NCBI GenBank assembly: GCA_031286025.1
Contig: JAITVB010000138.1
Coordinates: 1-12,982 of the forward strand
DNA from: Rikenellaceae bacterium
GTDB lineage: Bacteria > Bacteroidota > Bacteroidia > Bacteroidales > Rikenellaceae
Direction: 5' to 3'
DNA: 12,982 bases
In this document: positions 2,415-11,197 of the stretch, in pieces
Numbering within the stretch: position 1 is the stretch's first letter
Layout: each line of letters starts with the position of its first letter
The notes under the pieces: model-generated
What the model was told of the DNA's origin: nothing
Seen by the model: only the letters and a program-made list of their open reading frames with translations
Databases searched by the model: none
Translations under genes and position numbers: made by a program

Positions 2415-2694
2415 GGGAATAATTTTGAATTTTAGCCATCCCGCCCCCTGTCCTGCCGCTTTCTTTTCCGGCCGGAACGGAATTTTATGGCGTATCCCGG
2501 CTTTGGTGAGGCCGGTTTTTGTACAAAACATCCCGCGAATGCGATAAATCCACTCAATTTATGATAAAAAAACAAAAATAAAACAGGGATAAGAATCTTA
2601 TCGATTGTAATGCGGGAGATCAAAAGCGATTAGATTTCGAAATATTTGGTTCTTTCCTAAAAAGGGTTTGTAAAATCCGACAACGTGCGTTTTT

Positions 2695-2702
2695 TAATTT
2701 TG
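2695..2702 (+). promoter_or_regulatory. Possible upstream -7 box facing susC
   Basis: TAATTTTG matches TAnnTTTG exactly. A TTTG at 2667-2670 lies 24 nt upstream, somewhat farther than the usual 19-21 nt. It stands 43 nt before the stronger box at 2738 and sits in AT-rich sequence where chance matches are common. Confidence 0.3.
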
Positions 2703-2713
2703 GTATGTGCAAA

Positions 2714-2745
2714 TGTGAAGAATTTATAAAAATTTCTTACCTTTG
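2714..2745 (+). promoter_or_regulatory. Best promoter candidate for the susC-susD operon
   Basis: TACCTTTG at 2738-2745 matches the Bacteroidota -7 consensus exactly, and TGTG at 2714-2717 is a 3-of-4 match to the -33 TTTG element at a spacing of 20 nt. Transcription would begin near 2752, giving a leader of about 420 nt before susC that contains the whole inverted-repeat segment. The promoter lies outside that segment, so inversion would change the leader and not this promoter. No other exact TAnnTTTG on the plus strand was found between here and the susC start. Confidence 0.5.
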
Positions 2746-2871
2746 TTAATCAGAATCAGTTTAAATACTGCTTTTGTGTTGCTTTTTTATGACAAAAGGG
2801 GCGCGGGCAAGTATCGGAATAACAAATCCGCCCGTATTTGCAAGTTCTTTTACAAGAGAAGTTTTGGGCCA

Positions 2872-2891
2872 GGAAACATAATGTAGATTAT
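2872..2891 (+). repeat. Left arm of a 20-bp perfect inverted repeat (candidate inversion site)
   Basis: GGAAACATAATGTAGATTAT is the exact reverse complement of 3083-3102. The arm contains an internal dyad, ATAAT-GTAG-ATTAT, with an asymmetric centre, an arrangement known from tyrosine and serine recombinase core sites. Just outside, the match breaks down (GGGCCA against CGGCGG), and no target-site duplication is visible. Confidence 0.85.
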
Positions 2892-3082
2892 ATCCGCAAC
2901 AGTTGAACGCAGGGGATGGCATCACAATACACTAAAAAACAGACAGATGGCATAGGGGGAGGATAATCCCGGAAAGGATAACCAAAGACTGGTGGGCGGG
3001 AGAGCCGGAAAAAACAAAAAAAACCGATGTAAGCACCAAGGCTCAGAAAGGGAAAGTTTTGAGATGAATGTTTTATAAGTGC
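2892..3082. other. 191-bp segment between inverted repeats, candidate invertible regulatory element
   Basis: The segment is enclosed by perfect 20-bp inverted repeats and ends 91 nt before the susC start, a layout like the phase-variable invertible elements of gut Bacteroidales. The plus strand is strongly purine-rich. It holds a direct repeat AGGATAA (2960-2966 and 2975-2981), a second direct repeat GATGGCAT (2915-2922 and 2946-2953) and a long A run near 3010-3022. No exact TAnnTTTG promoter was found inside on either strand. A 16-codon frame (2916-2966, preceded by AGGGG) is the only start with a plausible ribosome site and is too short to judge. That the segment inverts is inference. Confidence 0.5.
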
Positions 3083-3102
3083 ATAATCTACATTATGTTT
3101 CC
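3083..3102 (-). repeat. Right arm of the 20-bp perfect inverted repeat
   Basis: This is an exact reverse complement of 2872-2891. Here the internal dyad is longer and perfect, CATAAT-CTAC-ATTATG at 3082-3097. The arm also contains TATGTTTC (3094-3101), a 7-of-8 match to the -7 consensus facing susC, with TTTT at 3071-3074 (inside the enclosed segment) 19 nt upstream as a weak -33. If that promoter is real, inversion would exchange its upstream element. Confidence 0.85.
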
Positions 3103-3173
3103 CGGCGGAGACAGGCATTGGATACCGATTACACGAAAGATTCTTCACAGTTACTAACTACAAAAAAACGCTT

Positions 3174-6116
3174 ATGAAAAAATTTACACTAACACTCTTG
3201 GTTGTGCTTCTGGCGAGCGTGCAGACGTTCGCTCAGAACGTACAGGTGACGGGCAGGGTCGTCGGCGAAGACGGCAACCCGATCGTCGGTGCGGTGGTGA
3301 TGGTTTCCGGCACCCAACAGGGGGTGACCACCGATGCTTCCGGCAACTACGCCATCACTGCCCCCGCCCGGGGCATCCTCGAATTCTCCCTGCTCGGGAT
3401 GATCTCCCTGACGGAGGAGATCAACGGGCGTACCCAAATCAATGCCAAGCTGATTGCCAACGCCGAAGAGATCGAGGTGGTCGTCGCCTACGGATCGGCA
3501 CCGAGAAAGGCCGGAACGGTGATCGGTTCGGTCGACAAGGTTGACGCGGCCAAACTGGCCGACCGTCCTTCGACAAGCATAATGGACGCTATGCAGGGCC
3601 AGGTGGCCGGACTTTCGGTAATGACCTCTTCGGGTGAGCCCGACGCGCTTTCGACTTTCCGCCTCCACGGGATCGGTACATTGAACACCACCTCCAGCAA
3701 AGAGCCGCTGATCCTGCTCGACGGTTCGCCGATCACCACGGGTACCCTGTTGGCCATGAACTCCAGCGACATCGAAAGCATCAACGTACTTAAGGACGCT
3801 TCGTCGACCTCGATCTACGGTTCGTCGGCCGCTAACGGCGTTATCTACGTCGTTTCCAAACTGGGACGCCGCAACGTGGACGAAGGCGTGAAGGTAACCC
3901 TGAAGGAGCAATACTCGGTTTCGACGGTGGCCAAACCCCGCCTCCAGGCGATGAGCACCAACCAGTATACCCAGTATCTGTATGACCTCGGGGTGATCGA
4001 CCAAAACGACATGGCAGAGCTCAACGCCTTTGGCGACACCGATTGGTTCAACGAGATTTACCAACCCGCACCGATGAACCAGGTCGATCTGTCGGTGACC
4101 GGCGGCAGCGAGAAGACGGCTTACCACTTCTCGGGAAGTTATCTGAATCAGGACGGGGTGACCCAACAATCGGGAATGACCCGCTATACCTTCCGCGCCA
4201 ACGTCGAATCGCAAGCCCAGAAATGGCTGCGCACCGGCGCCAATATCGGGTTGAGCTATTACAATTCGACCAACTCGCAAGACGTCGACAACTTTGGCAA
4301 CTGGTTTACCAACCCCGCCAACGGTGCCATACTGATCCCCCACTATCAGACGGCATACGACGAAAACGGCGAAGAGATTCAGATCCTTGATTATACGGGC
4401 GGATATCCCAGTCCGTTGGTTTTCGACAACCTCTTCCCCCGCAACAAGAACAGGCTCCAACTCAACGGATCGACTTTCGTACAGCTCACTCCGATCGAGA
4501 ACCTGAACATCCGTTCCAACCTCGCCGTCAACGCGTTCGACAACAACACCAAGAACACGTCGTCGCCCGATTACGTGCATGCCAACGGCTCGGGTTGGGT
4601 ACAACAGGGATGGCAGCGCAACTACAACTGGACGCTATCCAACACCATCGAATACAAATTCAGGGTGGCCGAAGACCATTCGTTCATCGCGTTGGCAGGC
4701 CAGGAAGGCAAATACAGCAACTCCGAATACACCAACCTGCGCATGATGGGGGTTAAGGATTCCCGTTTCATGTATCTTAACCAGGGTGTTTCGATCCAGG
4801 CTCCCCCGCCCGTTACGCTCACCGAGTCGGCGTACTATTCGTTCTTCGGTCGCGTCGATTACGATTTCCGCGAAAAGTATTACGTCGATTTCTCGCTCCG
4901 CACCGACCGCGACTCCCGCTTCGGGAAGAACCGCCAAGCCGCCACCTTCTACTCGGCAGGGGTGATGTGGAACTTGAAAAAGGAAAACTTCCTGCAGAAC
5001 GCCGACTGGTTGTCGAGACTCTCGATGAAGTTCAGCACCGGCACCTCGGGGAACTCCAATATCGGCGAATATGCCCAATACGCCACGTTGGCCGCCACGA
5101 CCTACGACGGTAAGTCGGGATGGAACCCCGACAGTGCGGGAAACTCCAACCTCGGATGGGAATCGCAGCGCCTGAGCACACTCGGCATACACGCGGGATT
5201 CTGGAACAAATTGAACATCGAGATCGATCTTTATGACCGAAAAACTTCGGACATGCTTCTCAACAAACCGGTGCCGCGCACGTCCGGCTTCGCCACGATC
5301 GCGTCGAACGTCGGCGAGATGGTCAACCGCGGGATCGACCTGACGATCGACTATACCATTCTCCGGAACAAGAACTGGCTCGTTTCGACCCGGGGAACCT
5401 TCAACTACAACCACAACGAAGTGACCTCGCTTTTCGACGGCCTCGAAGAGTATCCCTATGACCCCGACGGCTTCAACATCATGAAGATCGGCCACACGAT
5501 CGGCGAATGGAAGCTGAAGGAATACATGGGCGTCGATCCCGCAACGGGCGACTGGCGTTGGAACGACGGCAAGGGCGGCTACACCAACGATTTCGATACC
5601 GCTCCCTATATCGAGACGGGCAAATCGTGGTTCGCCCCCTACACGGCCGGATGGAACTTCACGGCTACTTGGCGTGGCCTGACTTTCTCGATGGACTGGA
5701 CCGGCGTCTTCGACAAGTGGATGTGGAACAACACCCTCTACTTCTCGGAAAACCCGGGGTTTGCCGACGGGTCGGTGAACCAGTCGACCGGCGCCCTCAA
5801 CTATTGGAAGAAAGCCGGCGACAACGCCCGCTATCCGGCCTTGAGCTATGGCTATGATATGCCCTACGAAAGTACGCACATGCTCGAAGACGGTTCGTTC
5901 ATCCGCCTGAAGAACCTGACGCTCAGCTATGCGTTGCCGAAGTCGGTGTTGAAAAAGACCGGTTTCCTCTCCGATGCACGTGTTTTCGTCGGGGGACGCA
6001 ACCTGGTCACGATCACCAAGTATAACGGTCTCGATCCGGAAGTCGACGCAATGTTTACTCTCGACAACTATCCCAACACGCGGCAGTATACGTTCGGGAT
6101 TGAACTGACATTTTAA
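3174..6116 (+). CDS. SusC/RagA-family TonB-dependent outer-membrane receptor
   Basis: This is the outer-membrane channel that takes up a bound nutrient (glycan, peptide or similar) using TonB energy. The 980 residues fit the family. A signal peptide covers residues 1-21 (MKKFTLTLLVVLLASVQTFAQ, in 20-residue terms ending TFAQ). A carboxypeptidase-regulatory-like beta-sandwich spans about 24-95 (VTGRVVGEDGNPIVGAVV), followed by EEIEVVVAYGSAPRK. The plug spans about 110-230 and carries the SusC signature LKDASSTSIYGSSAANGVIY at 207-226. The rest is a 22-strand barrel ending in RQYTFGIELTF with a terminal Phe, as expected for BAM-inserted proteins. The susD gene follows after 26 nt. There is no sigma or anti-sigma pair and no N-terminal signalling extension, so control probably lies in the long upstream region. 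The substrate cannot be read from the sequence. Confidence 0.95.
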   Translation: MKKFTLTLLVVLLASVQTFAQNVQVTGRVVGEDGNPIVGAVVMVSGTQQGVTTDASGNYAITAPARGILEFSLLGMISLTEEINGRTQINAKLIANAEEIEVVVAYGSAPRKAGTVIGSVDKVDAAKLADRPSTSIMDAMQGQVAGLSVMTSSGEPDALSTFRLHGIGTLNTTSSKEPLILLDGSPITTGTLLAMNSSDIESINVLKDASSTSIYGSSAANGVIYVVSKLGRRNVDEGVKVTLKEQYSVSTVAKPRLQAMSTNQYTQYLYDLGVIDQNDMAELNAFGDTDWFNEIYQPAPMNQVDLSVTGGSEKTAYHFSGSYLNQDGVTQQSGMTRYTFRANVESQAQKWLRTGANIGLSYYNSTNSQDVDNFGNWFTNPANGAILIPHYQTAYDENGEEIQILDYTGGYPSPLVFDNLFPRNKNRLQLNGSTFVQLTPIENLNIRSNLAVNAFDNNTKNTSSPDYVHANGSGWVQQGWQRNYNWTLSNTIEYKFRVAEDHSFIALAGQEGKYSNSEYTNLRMMGVKDSRFMYLNQGVSIQAPPPVTLTESAYYSFFGRVDYDFREKYYVDFSLRTDRDSRFGKNRQAATFYSAGVMWNLKKENFLQNADWLSRLSMKFSTGTSGNSNIGEYAQYATLAATTYDGKSGWNPDSAGNSNLGWESQRLSTLGIHAGFWNKLNIEIDLYDRKTSDMLLNKPVPRTSGFATIASNVGEMVNRGIDLTIDYTILRNKNWLVSTRGTFNYNHNEVTSLFDGLEEYPYDPDGFNIMKIGHTIGEWKLKEYMGVDPATGDWRWNDGKGGYTNDFDTAPYIETGKSWFAPYTAGWNFTATWRGLTFSMDWTGVFDKWMWNNTLYFSENPGFADGSVNQSTGALNYWKKAGDNARYPALSYGYDMPYESTHMLEDGSFIRLKNLTLSYALPKSVLKKTGFLSDARVFVGGRNLVTITKYNGLDPEVDAMFTLDNYPNTRQYTFGIELTF

Positions 6117-6142: not shown

Positions 6143-7663
6143 ATGAAAAGAATAATTTCAGTTTTGATGCTGTCGGGGGCCGTAGCGGGGATGAACTCCT
6201 GTTCGTTGGACTATCCTCCCAAGGTGAAAATGGGGTCGGAGAACGTCGAAACCCCCACCGATGCCGCTGCGGTAAGAAGTTCGATGTACCGTTACGCAAG
6301 ACTCCTCTTTTCGGGGCAGGCGAACTATTGGGCCGATTACCAGGCCGATCTGGTAAATGAAACCAACTACTCGGGTAACCGCGGCGGGTTCTTCTATCGT
6401 TGGACCAACACGGAAAAGAACTTGGATTTCGTTACGGACTGGGAAGCCCATTATCAGGTCATTTCCAAGGCGAACTTTATGTTGACCAATATCGACGACA
6501 TCATCGCCAGCTATCCCGCCAACGCCGCAGCCCTGAAGAACTACAAGGGCGAAGCGTTGTTGCTCCGCGCGATGGCTTACCGCCATCTGGCACTGCGCTA
6601 TTGCAAGGACTACGAACCGGCTTCGGCCGCGACCGATTACGGGGTGCCTGTAAAATTGGACTTCGATCCGGTCAGTCCTTCCACGGGCCGTGAAAACATG
6701 CAAGCCCTTTACAAGCAGATCACGGACGATATCGCCGCCGCCGAGGCGCTGATCACGACCGCCGGCTCGCAGAACGCGGTTTATCTGACCAGGGATTGCG
6801 TCAACGCGTTCAAGGCCCAGGTTTACCTCGACATGCACAACTATGACGGCGTGATCGCGGCTGTCAACGCACTGGGAAGCACATATCCACTGATCGCTTC
6901 GAAGTCGAATCTGGAAGCAATGTGGCTCTCGGATACTTCGACCGAAACCATCTTCCAGTTTCAGCTCACCTCGTTGGATCTGGCTGCCGCCATGCAATCG
7001 ACCGACTACTATCAGTTGACCGGCACCTTGGATGGAGTCACCACAACTACGGCCGGCTACATTCCCGAACAGTGGGTTGTCGACCTCTATGACCGTGACA
7101 ATGATTACCGTTGGGGGCTTTACCTGTACGACGGGTGGTTGGGGGCGACAAACGAAGCCGGCAGTGTCGTGAGAGCCATTCAGCTTCGTAAATTCTTCGG
7201 CAACACCGACTTGCGTGTTTCTTCCACTTCGCCGAACTATTACAACAAGCCGAAAGTATTCCGTATGGCCGAAATGTTGCTGAGCAAGGCCGAAGCCCAG
7301 GCCCTGAAGTCGGCCCCGGACTATGTCGGTGCGATGACGACCTTGGAAGAATTGCGCGCATCGCGCGGTTTGGCGCCGATCACTCCGGTTCCCGCCACCC
7401 AGGATGCCGTAATGAAAGCGATCCGGGACGAACGCGTTCGCGAAATGATCGGCGAAGGCGGCCGTCTGCCCGACATCAAGCGTTGGAAACTGACCGTGAC
7501 CCGCGATTCGCAGTCGGACATGCCCCTCGGGCCGGGCGGTCATACAATGACGATCAAGTGGGACGACGACAAGATTCTGTGGCCGATCCCGCAATCCGAA
7601 TTCGGCGTCAACCCGGCCATCTCCGGCCAACAGAACCCGGGTTGGGCCGCTCCGGCGGAATAG
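6143..7663 (+). CDS. SusD/RagB-family nutrient-binding surface lipoprotein
   Basis: This is the surface lid that binds the nutrient over the SusC channel. The 506 residues are normal for the family. The signal sequence ends in GMNSC, so Cys20 is the probable lipidated residue, followed by SLDYPP. The helical TPR-like N-terminal half includes YKGEALLLRAMAYRHLALRY, the classic SusD helix, at about 133-152. The C-terminal half has VREMIGEGGRLPDIKRWKL and ends with ILWPIPQSEFGVNPAISGQQ then NPGW, both hallmark SusD C-terminal motifs. It lies 26 nt after susC, so the two form one operon, and a strong terminator starts 13 nt after its stop. No hydrolase, protease or surface glycan-binding protein follows, so this is a bare pair whose substrate is unknown. 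Confidence 0.95.
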   Translation: MKRIISVLMLSGAVAGMNSCSLDYPPKVKMGSENVETPTDAAAVRSSMYRYARLLFSGQANYWADYQADLVNETNYSGNRGGFFYRWTNTEKNLDFVTDWEAHYQVISKANFMLTNIDDIIASYPANAAALKNYKGEALLLRAMAYRHLALRYCKDYEPASAATDYGVPVKLDFDPVSPSTGRENMQALYKQITDDIAAAEALITTAGSQNAVYLTRDCVNAFKAQVYLDMHNYDGVIAAVNALGSTYPLIASKSNLEAMWLSDTSTETIFQFQLTSLDLAAAMQSTDYYQLTGTLDGVTTTTAGYIPEQWVVDLYDRDNDYRWGLYLYDGWLGATNEAGSVVRAIQLRKFFGNTDLRVSSTSPNYYNKPKVFRMAEMLLSKAEAQALKSAPDYVGAMTTLEELRASRGLAPITPVPATQDAVMKAIRDERVREMIGEGGRLPDIKRWKLTVTRDSQSDMPLGPGGHTMTIKWDDDKILWPIPQSEFGVNPAISGQQNPGWAAPAE

Positions 7664-7676
7664 CCTGATCCCAATG

Positions 7677-7713
7677 AAAAAGAGAGGTTGCCTTTACGGC
7701 AACCTCTCTTTTT
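7677..7713 (+). terminator. Rho-independent terminator of the susCD operon
   Basis: AGAGAGGTTGCC (7681-7692) pairs perfectly with GGCAACCTCTCT (7698-7709) around a 5-nt loop TTTAC. The flanking AAAA and TTTT can extend the stem to 16 bp, and six T residues in total follow the GC part. It starts just after the susD stop and should act on both strands. The longest open frame of the next gene begins with an ATG inside this hairpin, which argues against that start. Confidence 0.93.
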
Positions 7714-7854
7714 TGAATATCTGTTTCCGGCGCAGCACCACGGGCTCTGATTGTCGGGGCCGATTTCCGGATTCGCCTGGATTTCGCTCAGTGGAATCTG
7801 ACTGGCACTTGGCTCATTTTAGCCGCATTCTGCTCTTTTTAGGAGGGTTTTGCG

Positions 7855-7862
7855 TATCTTCG
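7855..7862 (+). promoter_or_regulatory. Candidate -7 box for the MFS permease
   Basis: TATCTTCG matches TAnnTTTG at 7 of 8 positions counting the free ones, and lies between the susD terminator and the permease. No clear TTTG -33 is seen. Transcription would start near 7868, only about 13 nt before the TTG start proposed for the gene. An AGGAGG lies upstream at 7841-7846, but no in-frame start sits at the right distance from it. Confidence 0.35.
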
Positions 7863-7880
7863 CGGGAAAAATGGGTTGTT

Positions 7881-9152
7881 TTGAAAAAACGAGATAGGGG
7901 TCATCCCTGGTTTTGGGTTCCAACGCTTTATTTTGCGGAGGGGATGCCGAATGTGGTCGTGACCACGGTTGCGATCGTGATGTTCAAGTTGTTGGGCATT
8001 TCGAACGCGGAGATCGCGTTTTACACCAGTTGGTTGTATCTGCCTTGGGTGGTGAAACCGCTGTGGAGTCCGTTGGTGGATATTTTCAGGCGCAAGCGAT
8101 GGTGGATCCTGATCATGCAACTGATGATCGGCGGGTCGTTGGCGGGGGTGGCGTTGGTGCTGCCGGGGCCGGATTATTTCCGGTATAGTCTGGTTTTCCT
8201 TTGGTTGTTGGCATTCAGTTCGGCAACGCATGACATTGCGGCCGACGGGTTTTATATGATCGGGCTGACATCGAAACGGCAGGCTTACTTTGTAGGCATC
8301 CGCAACACGTTCTACCGGATCGCTTCGGTGGCGGGTCAGGGGGGCGTGGTGGTGTTGGCCGGGCGGTTGGTTGGATGGGATCGGATCGGGAATATGCAGG
8401 CGGCTTGGTCGATCACGTTCGGTATCCTGGCGGTGCTGTTCGGACTGTTTTTCCTGTATCACCGGGCGGTGTTGCCGCGTCCGACGGGCGATGTGGCGGC
8501 CCATGCCGATGAAGGGCCGTGGGCGGCATTCGGCGAAACATTCGTGTCGTTTTTCCGCAAACCGGGAATCGGGGCGGCGCTGACGTTCATTCTGGTTTAC
8601 CGCTTGGCCGAGTCGCAACTGTTAAAAATCGCTTCGCCATTTCTGTTGGATGCGCGCGAGGCGGGGGGATTGGGCCTGCCGCCGGAAACTTACGGTGTGG
8701 TTTATGGCACACTGGGGGTGATTGCCTTGACGGCGGGCGGAATCATCGGCGGGATTGCCGTTTCGCGGCAGGGGCTGAAGGCGTGGATCCGGTGGATGGT
8801 TTGTGCGATGAACCTGCCCAATTTCGCTTACTTTTATCTGGCGTTGGCGCAACCTGAATCGATCGTGACGATTTCGGCTTGTGTGGTGATCGAGCAGTTC
8901 GGTTACGGATTCGGCTTCACGGCGTTTATGCTCTACCTGATCCTTTTTGCCGAGGGGGCGAGCAAGACGGCCCACTATGCGCTTTGCACCGGATTTATGG
9001 CCTTGGGGCTGATGCTTCCCGGGATGTTTTCAGGGTGGATACAGGAGACGGTGGGCTATGTGAATTTCTTCGTCTGGGTGTTGGTTTGCACGATTCCGGG
9101 ATTTTTGATTATTCGACTCCTGAAGATTCCGGAAAATTTCGGGAAGGCATAG
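7881..9152 (+). CDS. AmpG/PAT-like MFS permease (TTG start)
   Basis: This is an inner-membrane transporter of the major facilitator superfamily, 423 aa from the TTG at 7881, with about 12 hydrophobic segments. The N-terminus KKRDRGHPWFWVPTLYFAEG matches the typical start of Bacteroidota permeases of this group. The loop WSPLVDIFRRKRWW (about 62-75) and ATHDIAADGF (about 115-124) correspond to the WSP..D and ATQDI..D motifs of the AmpG (anhydromuropeptide) and acetyl-CoA (PAT) transporters. The open frame reaches back to an ATG at 7674, but that start lies in the susCD terminator and its extra 69 residues look like translated non-coding DNA. No other in-frame ATG precedes the conserved region, so TTG is the best start. 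Muropeptide or amino-sugar import is suggested by the family resemblance, with no supporting neighbour in the window. Confidence 0.85.
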   Translation: MKKRDRGHPWFWVPTLYFAEGMPNVVVTTVAIVMFKLLGISNAEIAFYTSWLYLPWVVKPLWSPLVDIFRRKRWWILIMQLMIGGSLAGVALVLPGPDYFRYSLVFLWLLAFSSATHDIAADGFYMIGLTSKRQAYFVGIRNTFYRIASVAGQGGVVVLAGRLVGWDRIGNMQAAWSITFGILAVLFGLFFLYHRAVLPRPTGDVAAHADEGPWAAFGETFVSFFRKPGIGAALTFILVYRLAESQLLKIASPFLLDAREAGGLGLPPETYGVVYGTLGVIALTAGGIIGGIAVSRQGLKAWIRWMVCAMNLPNFAYFYLALAQPESIVTISACVVIEQFGYGFGFTAFMLYLILFAEGASKTAHYALCTGFMALGLMLPGMFSGWIQETVGYVNFFVWVLVCTIPGFLIIRLLKIPENFGKA

Positions 9153-9274: not shown

Positions 9275-10078
9275 TCAATTCATCCGGTAGTTGTAGATGA
9301 TCGTACCCACCTGCGGGAAAGGAGCACTCGGATCCGTATTGAACTTCGCCTGCCGCGCCGCCAGCAGTGCCGCCGCCACCAATTTGCTGTTGGCGGTCGT
9401 CGATCCTACCGAGCGGTAAGCCGCATTCACCACATCGCCCTGCTGATCAACACGTATCTCAACCACCACACGCCCTTCCTCGCGCTCCGAATAATCAGGC
9501 TTGGGCAACACCCCCACGATCGAACGGCCGTTCAGATCATACGAAATCCCACTCGTTCCCAACCCCGCGCCACTATGGCTACCGGCCGGATCGCCCGCCA
9601 GGTTGCCTTGATTGCCCGCGCCCCCTGTCACCCCTTCCGATGCGGCATTCCCACCGCCGCGCCCCGGGAACAGGGCGTTTTGGTTCACCTGCCGCGGTTG
9701 TTCGACAGGCGGCGTCGGCGATGGGCGGTTGGTCGGATGAGTCGAAGGCGTCGGATATTGGGTGGTCGGACGCCGCGCCGGTGCAATGGCCGGCGTATCG
9801 TCCCGGTCGCTCGTCAGCACGTCCTGCTGCGACGAAACTGTCGCGGACTGCGACGCCGCGGCCGCATTGGCAAACCGGTCGTTCGTCGGCAGGTCTTCAT
9901 CGCCCCACCCCGTTTCGCTGTTGCCAAAGTTGATCAGGATGCCTTCGCCCGAAACGATCTCGCTACCCGGGTCGAACGTTAGGAAAAGCGCCAACAGCAA
10001 CCACAGCACGGCATAAAGCGCCGTAGCTCCCGCCGCTATCGCATTCCCTTTGTTGTCCTTTACCTGGATCGGGGTCAT
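9275..10078 (-). CDS. tonB: TonB-like energy transducer
   Basis: The protein links the ExbB-ExbD proton motor to outer-membrane receptors such as SusC. It has 267 aa. A short cytoplasmic N-terminus is followed by one membrane anchor at about 16-35 (AGATALYAVLWLLLALFLTF). A long low-complexity periplasmic part follows, Pro/Thr-rich at about 100-128 and Gly/Ala-rich at about 138-176. The C-terminal domain at about 183-267 (LPKPDYSEREEGRVVVEIRV, then DQQGDVVNA and a final Asn) resembles the TonB C-terminal fold. The ATG lies 2 nt after the exbD stop, so the two are translationally close. A TolA-like role is an alternative for such Bacteroidota proteins, because the C-terminal domain lacks the YP motif of classical TonB. 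The symbol is therefore given with moderate certainty. Confidence 0.8.
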   Translation of the reverse strand: MTPIQVKDNKGNAIAAGATALYAVLWLLLALFLTFDPGSEIVSGEGILINFGNSETGWGDEDLPTNDRFANAAAASQSATVSSQQDVLTSDRDDTPAIAPARRPTTQYPTPSTHPTNRPSPTPPVEQPRQVNQNALFPGRGGGNAASEGVTGGAGNQGNLAGDPAGSHSGAGLGTSGISYDLNGRSIVGVLPKPDYSEREEGRVVVEIRVDQQGDVVNAAYRSVGSTTANSKLVAAALLAARQAKFNTDPSAPFPQVGTIIYNYRMN

Positions 10079-10080
10079 CG

Positions 10081-10473
10081 TTATTCCGGGCTTGTCGCCA
10101 ATATGAGCCGGTAATTGTTGTTCTTCGCAATGTTCATCACCTTGACCACTTCGTCGATCGGCACGCTTTTATCGCAATGGAGCGATATGGTAGGCTCCTC
10201 TTTACCGGTCAGCCTGGCCTGCAGTTGCGGTTCGAGTTGGTTGAAAGGAATCGGGGTGGTTTCGATATAGTAGTGGAGGTTGGCAGTGACCGACACCGTC
10301 GTGTAGGGTTTTTCCTTGAGGTTATTGCTGCTCTTGGGCAACATCAGTTTCAACGCGTTAGGATTGATGAGCGTCGTCGCCACCATCAGGAAGAGCAACA
10401 GCAGGAACATCAGGTCGGTCATCGAAGCCGCCCCGAACGTCGTTTCTACTTTTGAGCCTCTCTTGATTGCCAT
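10081..10473 (-). CDS. exbD: ExbD/TolR-family biopolymer transport protein
   Basis: This is a subunit of the inner-membrane proton-driven motor. The 130 aa are typical. The N-terminal cytoplasmic stretch ends in AASMTDLMFLLLLFLMVATT: one membrane helix at about 20-36, with Asp20 at the place of the proton-carrying Asp of E. coli ExbD (Asp25). The periplasmic domain contains ISLHCDKSVPIDEVVKVMNI, matching the conserved D..VP.....V motif. The gene starts 31 nt after exbB and is followed 2 nt later by the tonB-like gene. Only one ExbD gene is present here, whereas some Bacteroidota operons carry two. Confidence 0.92.
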   Translation of the reverse strand: MAIKRGSKVETTFGAASMTDLMFLLLLFLMVATTLINPNALKLMLPKSSNNLKEKPYTTVSVTANLHYYIETTPIPFNQLEPQLQARLTGKEEPTISLHCDKSVPIDEVVKVMNIAKNNNYRLILATSPE

Positions 10474-10504
10474 TTTTCTTGAGATTTTTGTGGGGTGGTG
10501 ACGG

Positions 10505-11197
10505 TTAGCGTTTTTCGGCCGGTTGGTTGAGCAGGTCCATGAAGGCGATCGAGTTGGCTTCCATCTGGAAGACCAGTTTCTCGATGCGGGCCACCAGATA
10601 GTTGTAGCCGAAGTAAGCCGGAATGCCGACCACCAAACCGGCTACGGTGGTGATCATCGCGGTATACATCCCACTCGCAAGGATGGTCATATCGACCGCA
10701 CCGCCGGCTTCGGACATTTTCATAAAAGCCTGAACCATACCGAGTACTGTCCCCAAGAACCCGATCATCGGTGCCCCCCCGGCGATGGTCGCCAGAAACG
10801 GCAACCCGCTTTCGAGCTTCGACACTTCGAGGTTGGCCACGTTTTCGATCGACGAGTTGACATCGTTCAGCGGACGGCCGATGCGTTCGATCCCCTTTTC
10901 GATCATCCGGGCGATGGGAGAGTTGGTCTCTCTGCACAGGTGGATGGCGGCGTCGATCTTGCCGTCATAAATGTAATCGCGGATGCGGTTGATGAAGTTC
11001 ATGTCGAACGAGGACGCCTTGCGGATGGCCCAGAAGCGTTCAAAAAAGATAAAAACGGAAGCAGCGCCGAGCAGCGCCAACGGAATCATCAGCCATCCCC
11101 CGGCCAGGATCAACTCGCCGAAGCCCATCGTTTTTACCTGTTGTGTCGCTTGGGCCAGGGTGTCGGCCACTTCTGCCTGTAAGAAGATCGTCATCAT
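10505..11197 (-). CDS. exbB: ExbB/TolQ/MotA-family proton channel
   Basis: This is the channel subunit of the motor that energises TonB. It has 230 aa. Three membrane segments are seen at about 28-52, 132-156 and 171-196. The family signature around GAPMIGFLGTVLGMVQAF (142-158) is clear, and TTVAGLVVGIPAY (183-195) carries the Thr residues of the third helix. The ATG at 11197 and the next codon (Met) are both possible starts. It is the first gene of the minus-strand operon exbB-exbD-tonB and has a consensus promoter about 50 nt upstream. TolQ is the alternative, but the order with one ExbD and a TonB-like protein favours ExbB. Confidence 0.93.
   Translation of the reverse strand: MMTIFLQAEVADTLAQATQQVKTMGFGELILAGGWLMIPLALLGAASVFIFFERFWAIRKASSFDMNFINRIRDYIYDGKIDAAIHLCRETNSPIARMIEKGIERIGRPLNDVNSSIENVANLEVSKLESGLPFLATIAGGAPMIGFLGTVLGMVQAFMKMSEAGGAVDMTILASGMYTAMITTVAGLVVGIPAYFGYNYLVARIEKLVFQMEANSIAFMDLLNQPAEKR

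Follow-up and report, generated by a model that had tools for sequence, protein, structure and literature searches.

The inverted repeat at 2872-3102 of the window, the whole stretch of 12,982 nucleotides from a Rikenellaceae bacterium that was analysed here, is, with a probability of roughly 0.7, one of at least five Xer-type inversion switches that would vary SusC genes by flipping a short segment. It very probably belongs to a known kind, the multi-locus SusC inversion switch, of which the dif-like recombination sites are the new feature.

Results

A perfect inverted repeat lies in front of susC

The initial annotation had placed a perfect 20-bp inverted repeat enclosing 191 bp upstream of susC. 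Its coordinates were confirmed (2872-2891 and 3083-3102, with 191 bp between the arms), and when the whole window was dinucleotide-shuffled 40 times, no inverted pair at most 500 bp apart reached more than 15 bp. Extended outwards the repeat measures 24 bp with one mismatch. The putative left recombination site, distal to susC, occupies 2868-2891 on the plus strand, with the perfect 20-bp core at 2872-2891 and a dif-like 15-mer, ACATAA-TGTAGA-TTA, at 2876-2890; the right site, proximal to susC, is its inverted copy at 3083-3106 on the minus strand. The 191-bp interior (2892-3082, assigned to neither strand) is 68% purine on the plus strand. The flanks were read directly and, as had been claimed, they show no target-site duplication next to the repeat.

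The repeat pair sits between a divergent gene with a Big_5 domain (169-2439) and the susC-susD pair. susC (3174-6116, plus strand) encodes a SusC/RagA TonB-linked outer membrane protein of 980 aa (675.5 bits, cut-off 368.25). It is followed by susD (6143-7663, plus strand; SusD_RagB and SusD-like_3) and by a perfect 16-bp hairpin ending in T6 (7677-7713, plus strand), the probable terminator of susCD. No invertase gene was found near the element in the window, Rfam at gathering thresholds gave nothing in the window, and no tRNA was detected in it. Behind susCD, and separated from it by a terminator-like hairpin, lies an MFS permease (7674-9152) whose best NCBIfam match, to AmpG-family muropeptide transporters, reached 168.7 of 350 bits and is below the cut-off; as a clue to the substrate of susCD this is a hint at most. 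The SusCD locus is also adjoined by consecutive TonB-like, ExbD/TolR-like and ExbB/TolQ-like genes on the minus strand (9275-11197).

The same repeat recurs in the genome

The same repeat was found at several loci of this one genome, with short segments directly upstream of susC. The assembly (G000; 1.72 Mb, 261 contigs, 77.5% complete) contains eight copies of the 16-base core ACATAATGTAGATTA when at most two mismatches are allowed, and these form exactly four inverted pairs, measuring end to end 223 bp in the window (contig C97), 247 bp on C129, 262 bp on C219 and 265 bp on C87. The reversed control pattern gave no pairs in the genome. A fifth pair, of 245 bp end to end, is present on contig C52 (L221, 4586-4830) and shares the arms, but not the spacer, of the other four; its site reads ACATAA-CGTAAG-TTATA, the spacer being identical in both copies. 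The scan for other spacer classes covered the SusC loci and the other loci that were examined (147,594 bases, overlaps included). The window arms, perfect over 20 bp, surpass those of the other four pairs both in length and in likeness to each other.

Four of the five elements precede SusC genes: those following C97, C87 and C219 score above the curated cut-off and the SusC gene of C52 was also confirmed, while the gene after C129 is truncated by the contig end after about 19 codons. Seen from the side of the genes, the SusC model had 19 matches in the genome, 11 of them above the cut-off, and inverted repeats of at least 14 bp with 60-450 bp between them preceded four of the 19 (C97, C87, C219 and C52). 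Many contigs end just before susC, and upstream counts were taken from match coordinates and locus lengths. Only six of the 11 genes above the cut-off have 1500 bp assembled upstream, and four of those six carry a switch. The earlier proposal that the window repeat is an invertible switch of SusC/SusD gains much strength from the four further pairs of this genome, three of which precede confirmed SusC genes; the inversion itself, which we infer, was not observed.

The interiors of C87 (L012, 7578-7842) and C129 (L013, 3574-3820) are identical at 196 of 216 positions (91%), and that of C219 agrees with C87 at 147 of 224 (score 171; 100 shuffles reached at most 113). The homology between these three elements ends at the sites, their flanks aligning no better than unrelated DNA. 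It looks as if the C87 and C129 cassettes had been copied or exchanged between unrelated loci. The window interior appears not clearly related to those of its sisters. Alignment with C87 scored 91 against a shuffle maximum of 88, the scores with the remaining two (86 and 62) stayed within shuffles (maxima 89 and 95), and so did the alignment with C52. None of 268 family genomes contains a homologue of this interior, and a DNA search of them with positions 2860-3180 returned, outside the own genome, just pieces of 22-32 bases from six genomes. Its purine skew is singular as well, since only three of 3439 sliding windows over seven sequences of this genome are equally extreme, and these three lie on the segment itself. 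The window member is the odd one and the least understood of the five switches.

The putative recombination sites resemble dif

Reading outward, the ten half-sites of the five pairs have TATAA (five), CATAA (two) or TCTAA (three) as inner part and TTATGT as outer part in all ten. The spacer in the same reading is TCTACA in eight sites and CTTACG in two, and in each of the five pairs it is identical within the pair. Set against the dif core (TATAA, six nucleotides, TTATGT), seven of the ten inner parts are TATAA or CATAA and three are TCTAA. The full 11-bp XerD arm TTATGTTAAAT was not found among the ten: nine sites stop matching after about TTATGT, and the only one to come near the full arm is the right site of C52, TTATGTTAAAA.

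The relatives were searched for dif with a pattern based on the E. coli dif, at most two mismatches being allowed. It matched in 39 of 61 genomes, a number that is partly due to chance since some genomes also match the control pattern. In a stricter form, sixteen loci read TTGAATTATAA-T(A/T/C)TA(T/C)A-TTATGTTAAAT. The core of these is fixed by the filter itself; outside the filter, A and T follow TTAA in 15 of 16 and T precedes the core in 14 of 16. This conservation beyond the filtered core indicates a real site. The switch core with TCTACA falls within the variation of these sixteen dif-pattern sites, and the switch sites, which are asymmetric, resemble the dif of related genomes. In the assembly itself the own dif was not found: the core search (at most two mismatches) gave the eight switch sites only and the dif pattern two switch sites only. 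The idea that the spacer is private with respect to the organism's own dif was dropped, the latter not being in the assembly and the dif spacers of relatives being variable.

Three loci of Bacteroidota type (L123, 1448-1664; L167, 424-637; L219, 1501-1740) contain a dif-like site with a full TTATGTTAA arm and, at a distance of 210-240 bp, another such site in inverted orientation with a TTATGTCTGC or TTATGTCTCC arm. These pairs are possibly Xer-using elements beside dif.

Predicted promoters and terminators of the sister elements

The interiors of C87, C129 and C219 contain the -7 boxes TATTTTTG, TAATTTTG and TAACTTCG, of which the last has five of the six bases, at 33, 31 and 30 nt from the susC-proximal core. 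The consensus TAnnTTTG is that given for the Bacteroides -7 element in PMC4747536. No perfect box was present in the 200 bp upstream of these three elements. A single perfect box is weak evidence, as 13-16% of shuffled interiors have one; the case for promoters rests on the constant position of the box, and C87 and C129 are near copies. In C52 no box of the TAnnTTTG type faces susC inside the segment, and no perfect one occurs in 220 bp outside.

A hairpin is found at the far end of the segment in C87 (z -6.8), C129 (z -6.9) and C219 (z -1.8). On inversion of C87, C129, C219 or C52, susC would be faced by a hairpin (-17.8 to -26.3 kcal/mol) that ends in a T-rich stretch, and for each of the four its strength was equalled in none of 100 dinucleotide shuffles. 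In the orientation as found, only C129 shows a terminator (-16.1; one of 100 shuffles as strong). A terminator faces the gene in one orientation only in C52, C87 and C219, and not in the window. The C52 terminator is also listed by a looser consensus scan, for which the chance expectation in that region is 0.9. Judged from this placement of promoters and terminators, the four sisters look ON in the present orientation and OFF in the opposite one, C52 being a case that would act via its terminator alone.

Expression signals of the window element

The annotation's statement that no consensus promoter lies inside the segment holds for TAnnTTTG. The best candidate inside on the susC strand is a degenerate -7 box, AAGTTTTG, with five of six defined bases (3054-3061, plus strand; 30 nt inside the proximal site). 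It stands where the sisters have their promoters, and 40 of 2000 shuffles do equally well. Likewise, the best promoter had been placed outside and upstream, where two perfect TAnnTTTG boxes were indeed found, TAATTTTG at 2695-2702 (plus strand, TTTG 24 nt upstream) and TACCTTTG at 2738-2745 (plus strand, TGTG 20 nt upstream); the latter seems the likeliest of the candidate outside promoters. Between these boxes and the segment the leader contains a hairpin with a U-rich 3' side (2795-2851, plus strand, -18.4 kcal/mol), which eight of 200 shuffles fold as well and which is absent from the consensus terminator scan. That scan does list two T-tailed terminator-like hairpins at 2466-2515 (plus strand), between the divergent gene and the susC promoters.

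No passing terminator was detected in the window segment in either orientation. A T8GT6 tract on the minus strand (3009-3023) faces susC only if the segment is inverted, after a weak hairpin of about -5 kcal/mol, and the inverted leader is pyrimidine-rich, with C above G. The suggestion that inversion acts by changing the leader RNA fits the sister C52, where a terminator faces susC only when inverted, but for the window, which is without a passing terminator either way, an inner weak promoter and a leader mechanism are about equally likely to control susC.

Candidate recombinases

PF00589 matched three proteins of the genome: XerD with 341.9 bits (cut-off 329.6), a XerC-like protein with 297.5 bits (cut-off 335.15) and a truncated integrase. 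PF00239 had no match in this 77.5%-complete genome, and the only complete tyrosine recombinases found in it are XerD and the XerC-like protein. An integrase on contig C25 (L027, 6958-7875, minus strand) has weak XerC/XerD matches and a shortened C-terminus; it lies near the apparent 3' end of a tmRNA gene that was judged by eye.

Distribution in relatives and beyond

Upstream of SusC in relatives, an inverted repeat of at least 14 bp was found at none of 29 loci (the best 51% identical), two of which (L078 and L092) have less than 1500 bp upstream; three of the 29 have a repeat of 12 bp. Core pairs were found in none of 267 other family genomes. Among the 393 genomes of the order there is one other, G608, with a dif-like pair, carrying the full XerD arm on one side; one of its sites is probably the true dif, next to which an inverted dif-like site lies. 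For the exact pair pattern there was no match in genome_contigs, a collection from which this or very near genomes may be left out, and none in viral_contigs.

The generalised pair ACATAATNNNNATTA, with 181-241 bp between its halves, occurs in at least 119 stretches of the named genomes, and 80 of these loci (L098-L177) were analysed. Among the matches listed, these 80 loci contain 81 pairs, 76 of which have an identical spacer, the spacers being locus-specific; the loci are mostly from gut Clostridia and the arms mostly symmetric. A frame of at least 60 codons leads away from the pair within 400 bp in 71 of the 75 matched-spacer loci among the matches listed, by a mechanical count made without a control, and a perfect TTGACA/TATAAT pair lies inside in five of the same 75. 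Eight neighbour proteins were chosen: three have collagen repeats, one leucine-rich repeats and one a Listeria-Bacteroides repeat; the rest are a TIR/cupin protein, one with a GH3 C-terminal domain and one without a match. From these sequences the pairs of gut Clostridia look like a large family of invertible promoters, and their spacers and neighbours support the view that inversion is what a core of this type is for. For Firmicutes_A, PMC11892184 reports inverton groups that have new motifs.

Discussion

The mechanism that best accounts for these elements is that a tyrosine recombinase of the Xer type, either the XerC/XerD pair or an unassembled close relative, would recombine the two inverted dif-like sites and so flip the 190-235 bp or thereabouts between them. 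In C87, C129 and C219 as found, the promoter would face the gene (ON-like); flipping would turn it away and bring an intrinsic terminator in front of the gene (OFF-like). In C52 a terminator is all that the flip would bring. The window orientation as found is probably ON-like, its susC being transcribed either from a weak inner promoter (3054) or from the outside promoters through a purine-rich leader, for which the flip would substitute a pyrimidine-rich leader with the T8GT6 tract. Several observations count against this explanation. A flipped form was not seen, and the readable sisters all look ON, which is disfavoured under frequent unbiased flipping. The sites are absent from 267 other family genomes, and the order has one dif-based pair. 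The window interior has no clear likeness to its sisters and is without a consensus promoter or passing terminator, C129 has a terminator in the orientation as found, and there is no invertase gene nearby.

The enzyme that flips these switches might instead be a dedicated master invertase of Xer-like type, comparable to Tsr0667 in B. fragilis or RecV in C. difficile, with its gene in the part of the genome that was not assembled. This refines the explanation above and does not exclude it; its chances we regard as slightly under even. The completeness of 77.5% leaves room for such an enzyme, known SusC switches use dedicated enzymes according to PMC4747536, the outer arms beyond TTATGT are mostly unlike dif, and the sites are restricted to a lineage, as expected of an acquired enzyme. 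The two Pfam searches, however, produced only XerD, the XerC-like protein and the truncated integrase, and the half-sites differ from each other as in dif, which suggests two unlike recombinase subunits. That the housekeeping XerC and XerD double as master invertase of a SusC regulon in this Bacteroidota species is offered as a tentative reading, somewhat short of an even chance, and part of it, at the same tentative level, is that dif-like sites with pair-specific spacers have been recruited into cassettes in front of genes, so that receptor switching would require no recombinase of its own. Against it counts that XerC and XerD at dif normally require FtsK, and that over a fifth of the genome is missing.

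A different possibility concerns the window copy alone, which could be worn or inactive, its cassette lost or replaced and susC constitutive from the outside promoters. Its unrelated interior, degenerate promoter box and missing terminator would agree with this, as would the perfect outside -7 boxes; yet its arms, more alike than those of any sister, are not decayed, and the strand asymmetry of the segment is unique in the sequence compared; we consider this possibility unlikely. Less probable still is that the sites are paired operators for a regulator, for instance a looping repressor, and have never recombined. A shared site upstream of several SusC genes could well be a regulon motif, but the sites always form an inverted pair with an identical spacer, the cassette homology between loci stops at the sites, and C52 keeps the arms while both of its copies share another spacer, as recombination and not binding requires; on the pair-identical spacers, the homology ending at the sites and the resemblance to dif, this idea was rejected. 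A MITE, a small transposon-like repeat inserted by chance, was rejected as very improbable: inverted ends, a size of about 220-265 bp and several copies would suit it, but there is no target-site duplication, the C97 and C52 interiors are unrelated to the rest, and each of the five known copies lies directly in front of a gene, which in four cases encodes SusC.

The preferred reading, inversion by an Xer-type recombinase, has parallels in several known systems. The SusC/SusD inversion switches of B. fragilis are governed by the master tyrosine recombinase Tsr0667 (cited in PMC4747536), and as described there they resemble the present ones in that one recombinase system serves, or here would serve, several distant SusC loci through short inverted repeats; the B. 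fragilis segments carry promoters. B. fragilis has shufflon-type multiple inversions and a dedicated enzyme, whereas here single dif-like pairs with two spacer classes occur and no dedicated enzyme was found. As to the promoter inside the segment, three sisters have one (one of them with five of six bases), the window has a five-of-six box only, and C52 has none facing susC. For C52, and possibly the window, an outside promoter with an invertible leader segment, as in C. difficile, fits what is seen: at cwpV an intrinsic terminator is proposed to act in the OFF state (PMC2784873), and the account of a flagellar leader switch invokes Rho (PMC7446863). The differences are that C. difficile uses RecV and that the window segment yielded no terminator and may contain a promoter of its own.

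Inversion between pXerC/D sites of Acinetobacter plasmids is attributed to the host XerC/XerD in PMC9947245, where active pairs share an identical spacer; these are dif-like sites as here, but they rearrange a plasmid and do not flip a cassette before one gene. At the mba locus of Ureaplasma parvum, PMC3599477 describes inversion by XerC, and binding of another recombinase, CodV, to the putative dif. There, as is proposed here, an Xer-family recombinase acts on short repeats to invert phase-variable loci for surface proteins. The gut Clostridia segments with the core ACATAATNNNNATTATGT share with the present sites the outer half-site ACATAAT, the arrangement in inverted pairs and a spacer that is identical within and variable between pairs. 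Their arms are mostly symmetric (TTATGT on both sides), whereas the inner half here, TATAA, CATAA or TCTAA, is nearer to the XerC side of dif. A search of the open-licence literature turned up no paper that describes SusC switches with dif-like sites or phase variation by XerC/D in Bacteroidota, though one may exist.

In Bacteroides, dedicated master invertases are known to control phase-variable SusC loci; the loci described here have dif-like sites, and a dedicated enzyme was not found for them. The site pattern is a tool for finding further switches of this sort, a related core marking many inverted pairs in gut Clostridia. With two spacer classes, cassettes could be exchanged between some loci but not between others. 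If XerC and XerD do the flipping, a bacterium could gain switches merely by acquiring sites, and the switching of its receptors would depend on the machinery that resolves the chromosome and could be coupled to chromosome segregation.
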